A DNA stretch of 44,239 nt from positions 1-44,239 of the forward strand of contig JAFIGG010000027.1 of NCBI GenBank assembly GCA_020831485.1, given 5' to 3'. This document shows positions 7,956 to 30,843 of this stretch, in pieces. Position numbers and translations under genes: made by a program. Source of the stretch: Opitutales bacterium (GTDB lineage Bacteria; Verrucomicrobiota; Verrucomicrobiia; Opitutales; Oceanipulchritudinaceae). How positions within the stretch are numbered: the first letter of the stretch is position 1; every line of letters starts with the position of its first letter. The notes beneath the pieces are model-generated. The model saw nothing but the letters and a program-made list of their open reading frames with translations, had not been told where the DNA came from and searched no databases.

Positions 7956-8030
7956 TGTTCAGCCGAGGCTAGCATGCAATCTACTTTTCTCAATCCTGAT
8001 ATTTGCAGGGTCGAGGTTCCTTTTTCCCGC

Positions 8031-8078
8031 GGGCACGAGGCGTGCCCGACCCCAGGGTGGTGGACGCCCTCGTCCACC
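8031..8078. repeat. Paired-hairpin intergenic repeat, copy 1
   Basis: Two adjacent hairpins occur here. The first is GGGCACG-AGG-CGTGCCC (8031-8047) and the second GGTGGACG-CCCT-CGTCCACC (8059-8078). Viewed on opposite strands, both follow the same plan, a stem ending ACG, a CCCT-like loop, then CGT. The element therefore resembles two inverted copies of one unit. Related copies lie at 26944-27096 and 30795-30843. Stem bases differ between copies while pairing is kept. Confidence 0.75.
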
Positions 8079-8116
8079 TCGAACCGCTTTTACATTCGAT
8101 GGTTCCAGCAACCCGT

Positions 8117-19321: not shown

Positions 19322-19409
19322 GTAGTGCCATAGCTTTAGCTTGGGAACCCACGAAATGGGAGAGCCTACGACCATGACCCGAGCCTCCCCTGCATGATTG
19401 CGGGGCTAC
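19322..19409. repeat. Cluster of three REP-like GTAG stem-loops between converging genes
   Basis: Three GTAG heads each precede a stem-loop. On the plus strand, 19322 is followed by CCA-T-AGC-TTTA-GCT-TGG. On the minus strand, 19369-19366 is followed by CCCA-TTTCG-TGGG, and 19409-19406 by CCCCGC-AATCAT-GC-A-GGGG. The stems are short or bulged and the sequences differ, so this is weaker than the pair at 15775. The TAG of the last head is the stop codon of the PEP-CTERM gene. The region may instead act as a weak bidirectional termination zone. Confidence 0.4.
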
Positions 19410-22400
19410 GCTCTGAAAGCGCGAATCCAGCGACGAATGCGTTTGCGTTCGCGCCAACCGAGAAACGATAGAATCATTGCACCAGCAAAATAGGTCGAAG
19501 GCTCCGGAATCGGAACAACCTCGCCGCCAGGCAGTAGTCGGGAGGCATCAGGATTGAAATTGATCCGGGCCAGTTGGGCATCGCTGAGCGTCGTCCCAAA
19601 AAATATCTGATCGGCTCCACCCCCTTCAAAGCTCCCGCTCCAGTTGACAATTGTCAGATCGAAATCATTGGTACCGTCGGAGAAAATAAAGTCGTCGAAA
19701 TTCAGGATACCGTCGCCACCGCCAAAATCGATGGTCGAGTTGGCCGTCAGTGTAAGTGTTCCGAGGGTTTCCGTGATGTTTCCGCCGATTTTCAGAGAGC
19801 CTCCACCAAGGGTCAGATTGGTGCCGGAGGAAAGTTGCTCAGAGGACGCCAGGACCAGTTCTCCGCCGCTGTTGACGGTAACCTGATTAGAGTTGATGGC
19901 CGTGACATTGCTGTCGCGGGCAAGAATCAGGGTTCCGGCATCGATAATCACCTCACCTGTCTGAGTGCTGGCCTCGGAACCGGACATGCGAACCGTGCCA
20001 CCCCCGTCAATGCGCATAATCCCGGATCCACTGACAGAAGCGGAAATGTCCAAATCGACGGCAGCCGCGCCGTTTTCAATCGTAAAGGTATGCTCGTAAG
20101 CATTGAGGCTCAGGTTGCCACTGATCGTCGATGAAATTGCGCTCGCAAAAGTATTCAGCGCATTGCCACTCTCGTCGAGGGACAGTGTTCCAGTCCCGGT
20201 GGTAACCGTTCCCGCACGCAGGTTGAGAGTCGCAATTGCATCGTTGCGGTCGTTCAAGTCCAAAAGGCCTTGCTCAAAAACATTCACTGTCTGCCAGGCG
20301 GGAATCTGATTGTCGCTGAAGTGCCGAACCGTCGCATTCTGACCTTCGCCGCCAATGAAAAGGGCTCCTTGCATTGCATCAACACCGGATGACTGAGCAA
20401 GATTCAATATCCCACTTTGGACTCGGGTCGCACCACTGTAGGTGTTGGCCTGATTGCCGCTGTAGGTCACTTCACCGCTACTTTGAATGAACACATCTCC
20501 AGTTCCGAAGATCGGACTGGTCACCTCTGTATTTCCAGCACCGACAAAACTTAACTGGTGATCGTCCCGACTGATCTGTCCGGTGATTGTCAGCAAGTCG
20601 GCATCCGAACCGACTGTGGAGTCGCCCTCCAAAGAAATGCTCCCAGCCCAGGTATTGTTGCCTGCAATGTTTCTCAACGCACCTGCACCCGTTGTTCCTG
20701 CGCCACTCAGGTAGACCTGTTCACCGGAAACGGTAATTCCATCCTGAAGCTGAAGTTCTGCCCCTGAAAAAACCCTATTACCCCAAGTTCCACTTCCAAG
20801 AGCATTGTCGTTACGCAGGTTCAAAATACCCTCTTCGACAATCACAGGCCCAGCGAAAGTGTTGTTTCCGGTCAAAGTCAGGGTCCCGCCGCCCCGCCTG
20901 ATCATGTCCGTGTAACTTCCTGAAATCACCCCATTGATCGTGGTATCGTATTCCCCGTCAAAGGTCAGCGCATGCCACTGGCGATTGATGTCACCATTGA
21001 AGATCATATCGCCATCACGGGCATTCCAGATCTGATCGGAATCGAGGAAAATATTCACGTTGACCGTCTGCGTCCGATCCTCGGCCTCATTCAGAATACC
21101 GCCACCACCAATCGTCAAAGTGTCGTTGGTGCTGGAATTTATGGTGAAGCTGGAATCACGGAACACCAAACTGTTCGTCAAATAGGCGTTGTCCATATTG
21201 TTCTCCGTCTTCGAAGAACCCGCCATCACGATCGCCTGACGCACTTGCACCCCGGGAGCATTGCCGCCTTCCCAATTGTTGCCGGTGCTCCAGTTGTCAT
21301 TGGAACCACCGCCTCCAGGCCCAGTGCCGCCGCTCCAGACAAAGGTCTGAATCGGTGTGAGAAAATAGAAATCACCGTATCCTGCAACGTTCTGAGCCGA
21401 ACCCGCAATATCGGCACCAACGCCGGCACCAATGCCGGTAAAATAAATATTGTTAAGGAAGTCATTAGTCAGGCTGCTGGCCGCAACCCCAATCACATTG
21501 GAACCGCCAACGGTCCAGTCGCGTATCTGAAACAAACCGGACTGGCTGCCACCCTCGGCGAAAAGAAATGACAGTCCTGAATCCTCGGCACCAAACCGGA
21601 GGGATGAATTGCCGAAACTGAACTGGTCGACGAGGACCGAATACTCACCCTGCAGGTCCACAGTCGCACCGCCTGTCAGCATAAGGTTGCTCGAACTGCT
21701 CAGCGCATTGTCGACTCCCAATGCCAGGGTTCCCTGATTCACGGTCGTCGTCCCGCTAAAAGTATTCTGATTGGTGAGCGTCAACTGACCACTGCCCTGC
21801 AGAGTAAAATCGCCACTGCCTGTGATCACACCGGCAAATGTATTGTCCGAGCTATCTCCTACCGTCAGAGCGCCTGAACCCAGGTCGACCACTGCATCGG
21901 CATTGCTGGACTGCATTCGACCAATTTGCTCCGTGTTGCCATTGAGGTCGAACACCGGATTCCCGCCGGAGGCAAGGTAGAGCTGGGTATCGTTAGCCAT
22001 CTGGTTGGACTGCAACAGCCGCAGGGTTGCATCGGAGGATCCATCTCCGACTGTTACCACTCCGCCCAAAGCCTGCGCGCCGTCGCTCTTATTGAGCTGG
22101 AGCACTCCAGCGTTGATTTCGGTCTGTCCGGAAAAAGTGCTGCTGGAGCTGCCGGCCAAGGTCAGCATGCCGTCATCAACGCGAATCAATCCGTCCCCGG
22201 AAATGCCGCCACCCCAGATATTATCACCGGAGGTATTTATAAAACTGCCCGCAAGGTCGAGAGATTCGGCACCGACCGATACGTTGTTTTCAATTTCAAG
22301 GGAGGCTCCGATGGCAACCGTGGTGCCACCAGCAGTTGAGCCCAGAGCATTGCTGTTACGAATAGTCAGGGTTCCGTTGTCGACTAAAGTTTCCCCACTG

Positions 22401-25400
22401 AAATCGCTGCTACCGGATAGAATCCAGCGACCGCTTCCGTCCATCACCAGATCTCCGCTACCGGAGATACCGCCGGCAAAGGTGGCATCCTCGCTGGCCC
22501 CGATCGTCAACGTTCCCGACCCCAGCAAAATGGAGGAATCGGTATTGTCGCTGACCACTGCATTCAGCCGCTCACTCGAGTCATTGAGGTCTAGAACCGG
22601 CGTCCCATTTGCATGCAGCACAACCGTCGTCGCGTCCGCAATCTGGTCGGATTCCAACAAACGCAAGGTGCTGCTGCCCGTCCCCTGGCCTACAGTAATG
22701 TCTCCTGACAGAGCCTGAGCACCGTCGGTCATGCCGAGTTGCAGAGTTCCTTCGCCAACAACGGTCGATCCGGAGAAGGTATTGCTTTGGTCACCCGACA
22801 AGGTCAGTGTACCACCGGCAACTTCAATGTTACCCTGGCCGGCAATTAGTCCGCCCCAGACATTGCTGTCCTGCACGTTGCGCAAAGTGCCCTCAAGATC
22901 CAAAGCCTGCGCGCCAACCGTAATGCCCTGCTCAAGCTCGATGGCAGCACCACTTTCAACGGCTGCACCGCCGGCAGTAGAACCCAGAGCTGTTCCACTC
23001 TGAAGAACCAAGGTGCCATTCGCGATGGTTGTGAAACCCGTATAAGTATTGTCGCCGGAAAGGATCAGGGTGTGTTCGCCCAGCTTGGTAAAACCGCTGT
23101 CGCCGGAAAGCTGACCACTGATCGTGAGCGAGCCGGACCCAATATTGTCGATCACCGTTGGTTGCCCGAGCTCAATATTGAAATCAATGATCTGGTTTTC
23201 GGCAGACATCTGGATGATACTGGGAACCGGCCCATCCAAAGTAAGCAGTCGATTACCCGAGGCTGTCAGATTAAATGCACCTGCGCCCTCATTGAAACGA
23301 AGGGCATTGATAGTCAGGTTCTGATTTAGAGTGGGCGTCAGGTCTGTGGTACCATCAAAGGCTACGCGGGTCGCCGTGTCACTGGGAGGGGCAACGCCGC
23401 CTGTCCAATTGGCATCGGTGCTCCAGTTTGAGTTGCTGCCAAGCCCATTCCAAGTGAAGAACGGTGTGGTATTGGCGACAATGAAGTTCCAGCTGTCGCT
23501 GTAACCACTGATGCTCTGATTGGTATCACCCAAAACGCCGGAACCCAATCCGGAAAAGTAGACACTGTTGAGAAAATTGGCTCCGACATTGGAAGCCACG
23601 CTCTGAAAGGCGAGGCCACCGGCCATGTCTTCGGACCAGTTTTGCACGGTCAAAACACCGCTGAAGCTGCCTGCATCGTTGAAAAGAAAATGATTCGGGC
23701 CGCCCGAGCTGCCAAACGAAAGAATACCATTATCAAAACTCAGCTCATTGACCCGCACGGAGTTACCCGCGAGATTCAAACTCGCACCGTCTCCAATGAA
23801 CAGGTTGGTCCCACTGCTGATCACATTGTTGCCTCCAAGCTCTATCGTGCCACGGTTGATCCCGACCCCCGTGCTGCCCGACAAATCGATGGAACCGGAC
23901 ATAACTACAGTGCCGGACCCTTGCTTGAAAAGGTCTCCGGAACCCGTGACGGCCCCGCTGTATTCGCCGCCGTCGGATTGGCGGAAAACGAGTGCTGCGT
24001 TGTTGACGATATCGCCTTGCAAGCTGGTGGTTGTGCCCTCCAAGGTTCCAGCGCTGACGGTGGTTCCGCCTGTGTAGGTATTGGCACCGCTCAGGGTGAG
24101 CACGCCATCACCAATAGCATTCAACTGACCGCTGCCGGAGATCACTCCGGCAAAAGTAGAATCCGTGTTGTCGGCACCAACACTCAGAATCCCCGAGCCC
24201 AACTGCACAGAGCCCCCCTGACTGCCGCCACCGGCCAGAGAGCCAATCGTTTCGTTGCTGCCGCCAAGGTCAAACACGGCACCTGCAGTGTTCGCCAGGA
24301 CCACCCGGGATTGATCGCCAATAGCCTGACCGCCCTGGACCCGCAAGGTCCCGCTTTCGATCAGCGTGTCGCCCGAATAAACATTATTTCCCGAGAAGGT
24401 CAGCACACCAGAGCCTTGGCGAATGACGTTGCCATCCCCTGAAATATTACCGGCATAAGTACCGCTATTGCTTTGGTTGAAAATCAATTCGGACTGGTTG
24501 AGAATATTTCCCTGCAGGCTGGTGCTAGTACCCTGCAAGGCCCCGGACTGAATGGTCGTACCCCCGCTGTAGGTGTTGGCTCCGGCCAAGGTCAGCATAC
24601 CCGAACCAGTGTGCACCAATTGTCCAGTTCCTGAAATTATCCCTGAATAAGTGGTACTGGTATTGTCAGCGCCCACAGTCAGCGTCCCGGAACCCAAGGT
24701 CACATTGCCACCGGAACTTCCACCACCTGAAAGCGACCCAATGGTTTCACTGCTGCCACCCAGATCAAAAATCGCGGAGGAATGATTCGACAGCACAATC
24801 CGGGACTGGTCCCCTATCGCCGTTCCGCCTTGAACGCGAAGGGTGCCCGACTCAATAATGGTGTCGCCGGTGTATGAATTGGTCCCGGAAAAAGTAACAA
24901 CTCCCGCACCACGCCGAAACAGCGAACCGCTGCCGCCAATAGACCCTGCAAAGGTTCCAGAACTCGTTTGGTCAAAGACCAGGGAGGCATTATTGGTGAT
25001 ACTCCCCTGCAGACTGGTCGTGCTGCCTTGCAGAGTCCCGCCGCTTACGGTAGTCCCTCCAGTGTAGGTATTGGCACCCCGCAAAACCAGAAGGCCGGAC
25101 CCGCTTTTGAGCAAACCACCGCTCCCGCTGATAATCCCGGTCATCTCGGTCTCGCTGTTACCAGTAAGCGTGAGTAAATTGCTTCCCAGGGACACCGTGC
25201 CGGTCAGGAGCAGCTTGGAGGTGTTGGCCCGCCAAGTCTGTGGGTTGGCTACGATCAAATTATTCGCAATGGTCTGGAGCTCGGCGCTATTGTTCGCCAA
25301 AGCGTAGGCAATGTTCGAACCTTGCAAAGTGAACGCCCCTCCGGTAATCGAAAACGCACTTGCCCAGTTGTTGAAGGTGATCGAGTTGATATCCCAGGTG

Positions 25401-25684
25401 CTGGAAGCTTCGGGATTCAGCCGCCGGTCCCCGCTGAAAATCAAATTTGCTCCTGTGCCTGAGGTTGGCGCCGTATTGCCAGCCCAGTTGAAATTCTGGT
25501 TCAGGCGGTTTCCGCCCTGCCCCTGTCCCGGGTGGCCACCATCCCAGGTGAAATCAACCGCAGAGGCACTGTGAACGAAAAACGTACACAAAAAAAGAAC
25601 TAGGATGCGCTGAACGCAGCCCGCAGACGCGCGGAGGATGTCCTTTGCGGCACCCCCGCCAAAGAACTGTGTACGGGAGGGCAC
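19406..25684 (-). CDS. Giant beta-strand-repeat protein with PEP-CTERM sorting signal
   Basis: This 2092-residue protein starts at a GTG (25684), with no in-frame ATG before the export signal (about 27-42, ending SASA). It is made of autotransporter-associated beta-strand repeats (PF12951/TIGR02601 type, G-x-L-T-L-S-G-x-N-T-Y-S/T-G-x-T). Residues 216-545 are two complete copies of a 165-residue unit, with a third starting at 546. A second family repeats near 968 and 1182. Three larger modules begin with F-x-W-x-G plus NW motifs at about 45, 743 and 1448. The C terminus has PEPST at 2060-2064, a hydrophobic helix and a basic tail (RERKRIRR), so exosortase processing is expected. No exosortase gene is in the window. 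Likely a cell-surface or EPS-matrix protein. There is no Shine-Dalgarno sequence on its strand. Confidence 0.9.
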   Translation of the reverse strand: MPSRTQFFGGGAAKDILRASAGCVQRILVLFLCTFFVHSASAVDFTWDGGHPGQGQGGNRLNQNFNWAGNTAPTSGTGANLIFSGDRRLNPEASSTWDINSITFNNWASAFSITGGAFTLQGSNIAYALANNSAELQTIANNLIVANPQTWRANTSKLLLTGTVSLGSNLLTLTGNSETEMTGIISGSGGLLKSGSGLLVLRGANTYTGGTTVSGGTLQGSTTSLQGSITNNASLVFDQTSSGTFAGSIGGSGSLFRRGAGVVTFSGTNSYTGDTIIESGTLRVQGGTAIGDQSRIVLSNHSSAIFDLGGSSETIGSLSGGGSSGGNVTLGSGTLTVGADNTSTTYSGIISGTGQLVHTGSGMLTLAGANTYSGGTTIQSGALQGTSTSLQGNILNQSELIFNQSNSGTYAGNISGDGNVIRQGSGVLTFSGNNVYSGDTLIESGTLRVQGGQAIGDQSRVVLANTAGAVFDLGGSNETIGSLAGGGSQGGSVQLGSGILSVGADNTDSTFAGVISGSGQLNAIGDGVLTLSGANTYTGGTTVSAGTLEGTTTSLQGDIVNNAALVFRQSDGGEYSGAVTGSGDLFKQGSGTVVMSGSIDLSGSTGVGINRGTIELGGNNVISSGTNLFIGDGASLNLAGNSVRVNELSFDNGILSFGSSGGPNHFLFNDAGSFSGVLTVQNWSEDMAGGLAFQSVASNVGANFLNSVYFSGLGSGVLGDTNQSISGYSDSWNFIVANTTPFFTWNGLGSNSNWSTDANWTGGVAPPSDTATRVAFDGTTDLTPTLNQNLTINALRFNEGAGAFNLTASGNRLLTLDGPVPSIIQMSAENQIIDFNIELGQPTVIDNIGSGSLTISGQLSGDSGFTKLGEHTLILSGDNTYTGFTTIANGTLVLQSGTALGSTAGGAAVESGAAIELEQGITVGAQALDLEGTLRNVQDSNVWGGLIAGQGNIEVAGGTLTLSGDQSNTFSGSTVVGEGTLQLGMTDGAQALSGDITVGQGTGSSTLRLLESDQIADATTVVLHANGTPVLDLNDSSERLNAVVSDNTDSSILLGSGTLTIGASEDATFAGGISGSGDLVMDGSGRWILSGSSDFSGETLVDNGTLTIRNSNALGSTAGGTTVAIGASLEIENNVSVGAESLDLAGSFINTSGDNIWGGGISGDGLIRVDDGMLTLAGSSSSTFSGQTEINAGVLQLNKSDGAQALGGVVTVGDGSSDATLRLLQSNQMANDTQLYLASGGNPVFDLNGNTEQIGRMQSSNADAVVDLGSGALTVGDSSDNTFAGVITGSGDFTLQGSGQLTLTNQNTFSGTTTVNQGTLALGVDNALSSSSNLMLTGGATVDLQGEYSVLVDQFSFGNSSLRFGAEDSGLSFLFAEGGSQSGLFQIRDWTVGGSNVIGVAASSLTNDFLNNIYFTGIGAGVGADIAGSAQNVAGYGDFYFLTPIQTFVWSGGTGPGGGGSNDNWSTGNNWEGGNAPGVQVRQAIVMAGSSKTENNMDNAYLTNSLVFRDSSFTINSSTNDTLTIGGGGILNEAEDRTQTVNVNIFLDSDQIWNARDGDMIFNGDINRQWHALTFDGEYDTTINGVISGSYTDMIRRGGGTLTLTGNNTFAGPVIVEEGILNLRNDNALGSGTWGNRVFSGAELQLQDGITVSGEQVYLSGAGTTGAGALRNIAGNNTWAGSISLEGDSTVGSDADLLTITGQISRDDHQLSFVGAGNTEVTSPIFGTGDVFIQSSGEVTYSGNQANTYSGATRVQSGILNLAQSSGVDAMQGALFIGGEGQNATVRHFSDNQIPAWQTVNVFEQGLLDLNDRNDAIATLNLRAGTVTTGTGTLSLDESGNALNTFASAISSTISGNLSLNAYEHTFTIENGAAAVDLDISASVSGSGIMRIDGGGTVRMSGSEASTQTGEVIIDAGTLILARDSNVTAINSNQVTVNSGGELVLASSEQLSSGTNLTLGGGSLKIGGNITETLGTLTLTANSTIDFGGGDGILNFDDFIFSDGTNDFDLTIVNWSGSFEGGGADQIFFGTTLSDAQLARINFNPDASRLLPGGEVVPIPEPSTYFAGAMILSFLGWRERKRIRRWIRAFRA

Positions 25685-26845: not shown

Positions 26846-26943
26846 GTTTTCCTGCCTTAGTTAACACTCAATTGCGCTTGAAGGAAGCCCTTTGCTCAAC
26901 GGGCACCGTGCTTTTTGGTAAACGGAAAGGTTGGAGCACTCCT

Positions 26944-27096
26944 CCCCGGGGGGGACGGACGCCCTCGTCCGTCCAATTTACCATGGCCCTGCTTCGGGCG
27001 CGGGGGCGCGCCCGCTCCCAAACCCCGGGGGACGGACGCCCTCGTCCGTCCAATTTACCATGGCCCTGCTTCGGGCGCGGGGGCGCGCCCGCTCCC
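26944..27096. repeat. Tandem duplication of the paired-hairpin repeat (2 x 77 bp)
   Basis: Two near-identical copies occur with a 77-bp period, each CCCC, a G run, hairpin GGACGGACG-CCCT-CGTCCGTCC (26953-26974 and 27030-27051), a spacer with CCATGG, and hairpin GGGCGCG-GGGG-CGCGCCC (26996-27013 and 27073-27090). The copies differ in the G-run length (7 and 5) and the identical part exceeds 65 bp. The array ends one base before the GH2 stop codon. Related single copies are at 8031 and 30795. Confidence 0.88.
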
Positions 27097-27097
27097 G

Positions 27098-29668
27098 TTA
27101 CTGCTTTACACGTATCCTAAGCTCAGCCTCTTCCAGCCCCTTTGATTCAACCTTCACGGTCAAATCTTCCGAAGCGCCGGTAACACATCGTACAATCGCC
27201 AGGGCCAGGCCATTGAAAGCACTTCGCTCGGCGGACTTGAAAGGCGTGTGATCCGTCGGATCGCCATTATCCGTGGCAAGAATTTCTCCTGGACCTGAAA
27301 GCGAGAACTTGAGTGCTGATTTTGCATCCGGCACCAGGCGCTGCTTTGCGTCCACGACCCGGGCAGTGACGAACACCAGATCGCGACCGTCGCCGGCAAT
27401 GCTCCGACGATCCGTTTGCAACTCCAAAGCCACAGCGGGACCCGTGGTTTCCCGAACGGCCTCCGCCCAAGGTTTGCCATTTTTGAAGGCGACCACCCGC
27501 AGTAGACCCGGTTCGTAAACAACATCGTCCCAGACCAGGCGGTATTCACCCGAGCCTTTGCGTTTTCGGCCGAGGGAGCGGCCATTCAGGAGTAGCTCGG
27601 CTTCGTCGCCGGAGGTATAGACGTGTACTGGAGTCTGCTCCCCTTCCCTGCCGGGCCAATTCCAATGAGGCAGCAGATGGGCCATCGGCCAGTCCGGCCG
27701 CCAGCGGGCTTGATAGATGAAAAACCGATCCTTCTTAAAACCGGCCAGATCCACGATGCCAAAGTAGGAACTGCGGGAGGGCACCTCAATTTTACCCAGA
27801 GCCTCCAATTCCTTGCGGGCGCGCTCCCGCTCAGCGGGATTAGAAAAATTCAGCAAATTGGTGCTGTCCGCGTTGTAGGGCGTCGGCTCGCCAATGTAAT
27901 CGAACCCGGTCCAGACAAATTCGCCAAACAATCCCGGATCCGAATCCTGCGCCCGAAACTCCGCATCGGGGGTCGTCGCCCATGGCGGCGTATAGAGGTC
28001 GTATGCGCTCATGTGAAAATTGGCACGCCCCTTCTCCGGATCTTGCTCCACAGGAAACACATACTCGCCCCGCGAACTGATCGTCGAAGCGGTCTCACTG
28101 CCATAGACCGGGGTCACGGGATTGTCCCTGCGGAAATCGGCATACATGTGCGGCTTGTAATTAAATCCAAACACATCCACGGTTTTCTGAAACCCGTTGG
28201 AGGCGCCCTCAGGAATATTGCTGCCAATCGTGACCGGGCGCGAGCTATCCTCGGAACGGACGATGGCAGTCAGACGGTTAGAGGTCACGGCGCCCTCGGG
28301 CGTTACCTGCTCGGCGATTTCATTGCCGGTGCTCCACAGAACAATGCAGGGATGATTGCGGTCCCGCCGCACCATTGCCCGCAGATCCGCCTCTGCCCAA
28401 TCGGGAAAGAGGCGATGGTAATCGTTGGGCTTCTTTGCATGCGCCCAAGTATCAAAAGCTTCGTCGATGACCAGCAGACCATACTGATCGCACAGGTCCA
28501 GGAGTTCGGGCGCGGGCGGATTATGTGAGGTACGGATCGCATTCACCCCCATTTCGCGGAGAATCTCCAATTGACGGACAAGCGCCGGCAGATGCAGGGC
28601 GCTGCCAAGAGCGCCGAGGTCGTGGTGCTGGCAGACTCCGTTCATGCGGATCCGCTGACCATTCAGAAAAAAGCCTTGATCTGGGTCGAAGCGAATGGAG
28701 CGAATGCCGAATTGAGTTTCGTAGCGATCGATGACCCCTTGCGCAGACTCAACCTCGGTCACCGCCCGATAGAGGTTCGGGTGCCGGGTCGACCAAAGCC
28801 GCGGCTCCGTGATGAAGATCTCCTCAGACACTCTTGCCGATCTGTCGCGGTTCACTTGAACAGCGACCCCGGCAGACTCCGCCACCGGAGTGTCCACCGC
28901 CAGACCGGAACCATCGTCCACCGGATAGACTTTGGTGCGGACCTGTACCAGCTCATCGCTCGAGCCAGCATTCCTCAACTGGGTTCGCAGGCTCACCTTA
29001 GCCTGTTCGGTTGAAACTTCAGGGGTCTGGATAAACTGCCCCCATTGATCGACATGCACTCTGGGCGTTTTCACCAGCCAAACGTTACGGTAGATCCCGC
29101 CTCCCGGATACCAGCGGGATGAGTCCTCGGGATTGTCCAGACGGATGGCGATCTGGTTGGGCTGGCCTTGCTTCAGAAATGGGGTCAAATCGATTCTAAA
29201 GGATGCATAGCCATAGGGCCAGCCTCCGGCGAACTCGCCATTCACCCAGACCATTGCATAGGACATGGCGCCGTCGAGTTCGAGAAAGCAACAGCCATTC
29301 TCATCCTCTGGTTCCAGATTGAAGGCCTTGCGGTACCAGGCGACGCCCCACCATTTGAGTTTGCCGGTTTCGCCCGGATAGGACTGTTCAAAAGACCCTT
29401 CAACTCCCCAGTCATGAGGCAGATTCAAATGCCGCCAGCTCGAGTCATCGAAATCGACAGCGGCAAAGTCAGGACTTGGAACTGCGGCATCCGCTGCTTC
29501 AGGTACCGCACCGAGGGCTTGTTCACGAAAGGCATCTCCGGAAGCAAGCAAATGAGATCGCATCGACGCATAATCCAAGCTGCCGGACAGCCCGGAGGAT
29601 TCACCGTAAGTGAAACGCCAATTGTCATTAAAAGGGGTACGCACACGCATTGAAGGTATCTTGCTCAT
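27098..29668 (-). CDS. GH2 family beta-galactosidase-like glycoside hydrolase
   Basis: From the ATG at 29668 the protein has 856 residues; a TTG 18 bp upstream is in frame. It has the GH2 order: a sugar-binding jelly roll (LNLPHDWGVEGSF, GGWPYGYASFRIDLTP, SRWYPGGGIYRNVWL), an Ig-like domain, then the TIM barrel. The barrel has the acid/base Glu at about 450 in STGNE and the nucleophile at about 525 in YGSETAS. Extra C-terminal domains of the DUF4982/GH2-C5 type follow (LLNGRSLGRKRKG, DLVFVTARVVDAKQR). There is no export signal, so it probably acts in the cytoplasm. The family includes beta-galactosidases, glucuronidases and mannosidases; this architecture is commonest in beta-galactosidases. 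Confidence 0.92.
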   Translation of the reverse strand: MSKIPSMRVRTPFNDNWRFTYGESSGLSGSLDYASMRSHLLASGDAFREQALGAVPEAADAAVPSPDFAAVDFDDSSWRHLNLPHDWGVEGSFEQSYPGETGKLKWWGVAWYRKAFNLEPEDENGCCFLELDGAMSYAMVWVNGEFAGGWPYGYASFRIDLTPFLKQGQPNQIAIRLDNPEDSSRWYPGGGIYRNVWLVKTPRVHVDQWGQFIQTPEVSTEQAKVSLRTQLRNAGSSDELVQVRTKVYPVDDGSGLAVDTPVAESAGVAVQVNRDRSARVSEEIFITEPRLWSTRHPNLYRAVTEVESAQGVIDRYETQFGIRSIRFDPDQGFFLNGQRIRMNGVCQHHDLGALGSALHLPALVRQLEILREMGVNAIRTSHNPPAPELLDLCDQYGLLVIDEAFDTWAHAKKPNDYHRLFPDWAEADLRAMVRRDRNHPCIVLWSTGNEIAEQVTPEGAVTSNRLTAIVRSEDSSRPVTIGSNIPEGASNGFQKTVDVFGFNYKPHMYADFRRDNPVTPVYGSETASTISSRGEYVFPVEQDPEKGRANFHMSAYDLYTPPWATTPDAEFRAQDSDPGLFGEFVWTGFDYIGEPTPYNADSTNLLNFSNPAERERARKELEALGKIEVPSRSSYFGIVDLAGFKKDRFFIYQARWRPDWPMAHLLPHWNWPGREGEQTPVHVYTSGDEAELLLNGRSLGRKRKGSGEYRLVWDDVVYEPGLLRVVAFKNGKPWAEAVRETTGPAVALELQTDRRSIAGDGRDLVFVTARVVDAKQRLVPDAKSALKFSLSGPGEILATDNGDPTDHTPFKSAERSAFNGLALAIVRCVTGASEDLTVKVESKGLEEAELRIRVKQ

Positions 29669-30771: not shown

Positions 30772-30794
30772 AAGGGCAAACCAACGAACTTAAA

Positions 30795-30843
30795 GGGCAC
30801 GAGGGCGTGCCCTTCCCCTGGGGGGCGGACGCCTCGTCCGCCC
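30795..30843. repeat. Paired-hairpin intergenic repeat, single copy
   Basis: Hairpin GGGCACG-AGGG-CGTGCCC (30795-30812) is followed by hairpin GGGCGGACG-CCT-CGTCCGCCC (30823-30843). The first stem is identical to that at 8031; the second differs from those at 8059 and 26953 by changes that keep pairing. Spacer and order match the copy at 8031. It lies between the stops of the AKR and the SnoaL-like gene. Confidence 0.8.

Follow-up and report, generated by a model that had tools for sequence, protein, structure and literature searches.

Paired hairpins in an Opitutales genome form a REP family with a GGGG/GGAG foot tag, probably spread by a RAYT transposase

We find that the hairpins scattered through the window (the whole stretch of 44,239 nucleotides analysed here, from a contig of an Opitutales draft genome) belong to a single REP family organized as inverted pairs and BIME-like arrays, which was most likely (probability about 0.8) spread by a RAYT whose gene lies on contig C5 of that genome. 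The C5 RAYT gene is flanked by these hairpins, and 30 bases next to it are identical to a copy in the window; we therefore assign the hairpins to a REP family with a RAYT. This kind of element is well known, and it is the GGGG/GGAG tag, replacing the usual GTAG, that sets the present copies apart.

The window contains three element sites, at 8030-8079, 26933-27101 (an array) and 30794-30843 (Table 1), as the first-pass annotation had claimed. Unit A has the form CGGGC[A/G]CG-AGGG/AGG/GGGG-CG[T/C]GCCCG and unit B the form GGnGGACG-CCCT/CCT-CGTCCnCC; each pair runs from unit A through a short spacer near CCCCGGGG to unit B. The plan of the two units is the same when they are read on opposite strands: [A/G]CG, a pyrimidine loop and CG[T/C]. 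The ACG-CCCT-CGT core earlier ascribed to both units is not universal: GCG-CCCC-CGC replaces it in the A units at 26995-27091, and genome-wide CCCC is the loop of 22 of 134 units. When folded as single-stranded DNA, the three main copies lie far lower than shuffled sequences (z -4.0 to -5.9). Convergent genes border the element at 30794-30843; their ends lie 43 and 15 bp away from it.

Table 1. Units and spacers of the hairpin element in the window.
Feature	Position	Strand	Details
Unit A	8030..8048	-	stem CGGGCACG; loop CCT (on -); tag to right
Spacer ACCCCAGGGT	8049..8058	.	two opposed G-rich tags
Unit B	8059..8078	+	stem GGTGGACG; loop CCCT
Array unit B no. 1	26953..26974	+	stem GGACGGACG; loop CCCT
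Array unit A no. 1	26995..27014	-	stem CGGGCGCG; loop CCCC
Array unit B no. 2	27030..27051	+	
Array unit A no. 2 (27072-27091) with tag GTAACGGGAG	27072..27101	-	30 bases equal to the unit beside the contig C5 RAYT gene
Unit A	30793..30814	-	stem AAGGGCACG; loop CCCT (on -)
Spacer CCCCTGGG	30815..30822	.	opposed tags
Unit B	30823..30843	+	stem GGGCGGACG; loop CCT

In the array the units follow each other in the order B, A, B, A, and an exact 70-bp segment recurs at a spacing of 77 bp; exact tandem copies like these point to duplication within arrays in the recent past. An ORF of 106 amino acids (26931-27251) runs across the array and is the sort of false frame that hairpin arrays create, as had been foreseen. 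Another array, on contig C22 (14578-14823, L017) near a contig end, comprises three near-identical tandem copies of the element spaced by 66-67 bp. Elsewhere in the window, a minus-strand ORF of 2092 amino acids (19406-25684) contains diverged internal repeats.

Searching the draft genome (3.86 Mb, 142 contigs) with a covariance model trained on eight copies yielded 128 matches at E<=1, 43 of them at E<=0.001. These matches, plus one unit known from the initial pattern search, define 90 sites; since a pair and its reverse complement are almost the same sequence, a few places are hit on both strands. The total is 134-154 units at about 90 sites, and a palindromic unit of 20-40 bp in many copies per genome is a REP in the broad sense. 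The earlier claim that paired, inverted hairpins form a dispersed family thus holds genome-wide. The fold itself is conserved through paired stem changes, as had also been proposed. In 35 strong genomic copies (32 distinct), two-sided changes affect 8 of the 16 stem pairs and 44 cells (shuffle means, 2.8 pairs and 8.5 cells); shifting the structure by 1-3 columns leaves only 0-2 pairs with two-sided changes. The A:T to G:C change of unit A is visible in the copies themselves, with 16 sequences in each state, and G:U pairs occur at one stem position. Standard pairs fill 97.8% of the pair cells, a percentage that is biased in favour of the structure, since the alignment was fitted to the structure being tested.

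The sites are mostly extragenic, as is characteristic of REPs. With genes called by a small ad hoc program based on codon usage, which makes all placement figures approximate, 64 of the 67 sites away from contig ends are intergenic; 50-bp places drawn at random landed in a called gene 86% of the time, so that only 14% would be expected outside. The statement of the first-pass annotation that all copies lie outside genes needs qualifying for the array, where the stop codon of a minus-strand ORF ending at 27098 falls within the edge of the element, so that this edge touches a gene. The 64 intergenic sites are found between genes of the same direction (33), convergent genes (23) and divergent genes (8), at a median distance of 20 bp from a gene 3′ end and 108 bp from a 5′ end. 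At a further 23 sites the contig ends before any gene on one side, consistent with the repeats breaking the short-read assembly. To describe the arrangement of the units, each was oriented with its G-rich tag on the 5′ side (Di Nocera's HH/TT naming takes head and tail in the opposite sense). Pairs with inward-facing tags numbered 17, with gaps of 7-15 bp; in 15 of 16 tail-to-tail joins the gap was 16-22 bp; and neighbouring units of the same direction were seen in eight cases. The alternation of inverted REP units with regular spacers that defines a BIME is therefore present.

The genome carries four Y1-type transposase genes. The one on contig C5 encodes a RAYT-type protein and has unit A on both sides, with unit B beyond one of the two; a cognate RAYT gene is thus flanked on both sides by the same repeat, an arrangement expected of REPs in the broad sense, and the REP-associated transposase that the first-pass annotation advised looking for exists in the genome itself. 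The A unit with its tag next to this gene, CGGGCGCGGGGGCGCGCCCGCTCCCGTTAC, is identical at 30 of 30 bases to positions 27072-27101 of the window. The motifs of the RAYT family are all present in the protein: NHVH (the HUH motif), the catalytic Tyr in YIRNNP, and WQSGYYDRMAR, whose W-Q-x4-D-R-x2-R pattern falls at the tag-reading positions of the E. coli protein as given in the motif table of PMC6006769. A profile of the C5 RAYT and 15 relatives has E. coli TnpA-REP (4er8) as its best match (E 2.6e-8). Against the NCBIfam family REP_Tyr_transpos (NF047646) the protein scores 52 bits (E 6.7e-14), missing the curated cut-off of 80 bits; judged by its sequence, it is related to that family but divergent. 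It also lacks about 11 residues present in most relatives and, scoring below the cut-off and being short, may therefore be inactive. Pfam gave no second domain in it.

Two RAYT-like genes of the same genome, on contig C16 (1345-1839, L042) and contig C81 (1420-2040, L039), adjoin other hairpins, which are preceded by GTAG. These are canonical REP tags, and thus form a contrast inside one genome. On contig C92 (772-1761, L040), a Y1 transposase-like protein of 329 amino acids with an NHYH motif is encoded without matching hairpins at the ends of its gene.

Within the limits of the searches made, the family appears to be confined to the species or genus. Among 36 genomes from the same family and order, none of them of the same genus, the model had no match at E<=0.001 (up to 150 candidates scored per genome). 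In 388 genomes of the phylum, where the filters were tighter and a smaller number of candidates was scored, one match each was obtained in only two others, G395 and G255, at E about 8e-4. These two genomes (L095, L096, L175, L176) have paired hairpins with other stems, an ACG-AGGG-CGT core and CTCC...GGAG spacers, and probably, as far as their sequences tell, hold REP families that are separate from ours but built alike. When a collection of named genomes, which may omit the genome studied here, was scanned for the pattern, 43 stretches came up, but the model bore out none of them (best E 0.02). Rfam had no match in the window. With no Rfam match and no confirmed copy in other genomes, the earlier remark that no named family has this core stands as far as it was tested.

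Of the 388 genomes, 131 encode at least one homologue of the C5 RAYT. At the best 30 RAYT loci (our own included), 26 have hairpins sharing sequence within 200 bases on both sides, whereas control windows at the same loci yielded 2 and 1 hairpins, and in no case on both sides. With hairpin orientation fixed by the pyrimidine loop, independently of the tag, the commonest tag class per locus was GGAG at 12, GGG at 5, GTAYC at 5, GT[AG]G at 3 and other at 5; since the 30 loci were picked as the nearest relatives, these counts are no survey of all RAYTs. The script assigning the classes is rough and applies a G+C filter of 55%, because of which locus L103, with GGGG before each hairpin, was scored as "other" (its hairpins have 50% G+C). 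A subgroup of the relatives (L107, L110, L112, L117 and L119) has GTACC or GTATC ahead of TCC-loop hairpins. In genome G284, the hairpin adjoining the RAYT gene is present 67 times, dispersed; it was found in none of four other genomes, and a reversed control pattern gave no match.

The 5′ foot of 151 of the 154 units of our family is GGGG or GGAG, and only 2 of the 154 have the GT[AG]G that defines the GT[AG]G superfamily. GT[AG]G is seen on the 3′ side in 17 units, nearly all of them A units, but a canonical tag would stand on the 5′ side. By anatomy the element behaves like a RAYT-linked REP, yet it lies outside the GTAG superfamily as defined, and outside the CGTC one. Pairing between tag and loop (GGAG with TTCC) as a principle of recognition was considered and rejected, as the loops remain TCC-like while the tags shift to GTACC, GTATC and GTGG. 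A literature search, with subscription papers outside its scope, gave nothing relevant on GGAG-tagged REPs. It is possible, at what we would judge slightly below an even chance, that a clade of RAYTs in this phylum reads a foot tag of the GGAG/GGGG type and not GT[AG]G, despite keeping the tag-reading residues of E. coli TnpA-REP.

The hairpins might alternatively act at the level of RNA, as bidirectional terminators or stabilizers of mRNA 3′ ends kept by selection, the link to the transposase being incidental. The clustering at gene 3′ ends, with 23 of the 64 intergenic sites between convergent genes, and the G:U pairs at one stem position would agree with such a role. However, the window copies lack a run of T after the hairpins, known RAYT-linked REPs have the same preference for 3′ ends, and the RAYT gene has these units on either side, a layout that recurs in relatives with different hairpins; we consider the idea unlikely. 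The two ideas are compatible: an RNA role at gene ends is possible, and whatever the hairpins do to mRNA 3′ ends would be secondary. A further reading, which we regard as quite improbable, is that some other element, since lost, left the copies behind in a past invasion and that the C5 locus was only a landing place for them. The single intact locus, the shortened RAYT and the many diverged copies point that way, but at about one site per 43 kb, units less than 100 bp away on both sides of the gene would be unlikely, the same layout is seen at the RAYT genes of relatives, and tandem copies are still exact, hence some duplication was recent.

The CGTCC and GGACG strings of unit B recall the CGTC REPs, which, as described in PMC3733652, are likewise small extragenic palindromes, often dimers, and would make ours an orphan family without a dedicated transposase. 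According to the same description, CGTC REPs have an unpaired CGTC end tag, a stem whose first two pairs are A:T, a tail fitting CCA and no transposase genes beside them, whereas here CGTCC lies within the stem, the stems begin with G:C or C:G, and the units adjoin such a gene. This anatomy disfavours the orphan reading, which we hold to be very improbable. Chance G+C-rich palindromes would be in keeping with the behaviour of the ten-base core, which by itself matches six times in the window (one mismatch) versus 2.6 expected and is not rarer than chance; the significance resides in the full paired element, for which the core is not enough. The 43 matches in the genome versus none in the 36 relatives, together with the paired stem changes, refute this explanation.

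If the hairpins were spread by the C5 RAYT, as we favour, this protein, or a recent ancestor, would have recognized them in single-stranded DNA and multiplied the copies. By analogy with E. coli TnpA-REP, such a RAYT would bind the single-stranded hairpin, read a short tag at its 5′ foot (here GGGG or GGGAG), and cut and rejoin the single-stranded DNA, thereby mobilizing the element. Copies would settle between genes, mostly just past gene ends, where they may do little harm.

The closest known systems are the GT[AG]G REPs with their RAYT/TnpA-REP proteins from E. coli, Pseudomonas, Stenotrophomonas and Opitutus terrae. As portrayed in PMC2817692, PMC3733652 and PMC6006769, these too are small hairpins with a tag at the foot, present tens to hundreds of times outside genes, close to gene 3′ ends and in inverted pairs, and they flank a Y1 transposase keeping the HUH motif, the Tyr and the tag-reading residues; they differ in the tag. 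Our stems and loops fit none of the families in the text descriptions consulted in these sources. E. coli BIMEs, with alternating Y and Z REPs, similarly have alternating inverted units of two types (here A and B), two regular spacer lengths and tandem arrays, but their sequence and tag are unrelated and their copies number hundreds, against about 90 sites here. In REPINs (Bertels and Rainey 2011, PMC3116915) the dispersed unit is also an inverted REP doublet; in our case, unlike theirs, units A and B have different stems. TIRYT elements, with GGGGWSAS terminal repeats, share related transposases flanked by G-run repeats; in PMC3733652, theirs are mostly terminal inverted repeats, in contrast to the foot-tagged hairpins here, and subclass 2.1 proteins have extra C-terminal domains, whereas Pfam sees no second domain in the C5 protein.

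For annotation, the element explains false open frames and may account for some contig breaks. More broadly, our results add to the RAYT-linked REPs a family that has another tag in place of the usual GTAG. Close relatives of the C5 RAYT within one phylum lie between hairpins of several tags (GGAG, GGG, GTAYC and GTRG), and these varied tags are natural material to test how RAYTs choose their single-stranded targets. If a RAYT clade does read a GGAG/GGGG-type tag, the tag code of single-strand transposases would be broader than described, and could be solved by comparing proteins with their tags.
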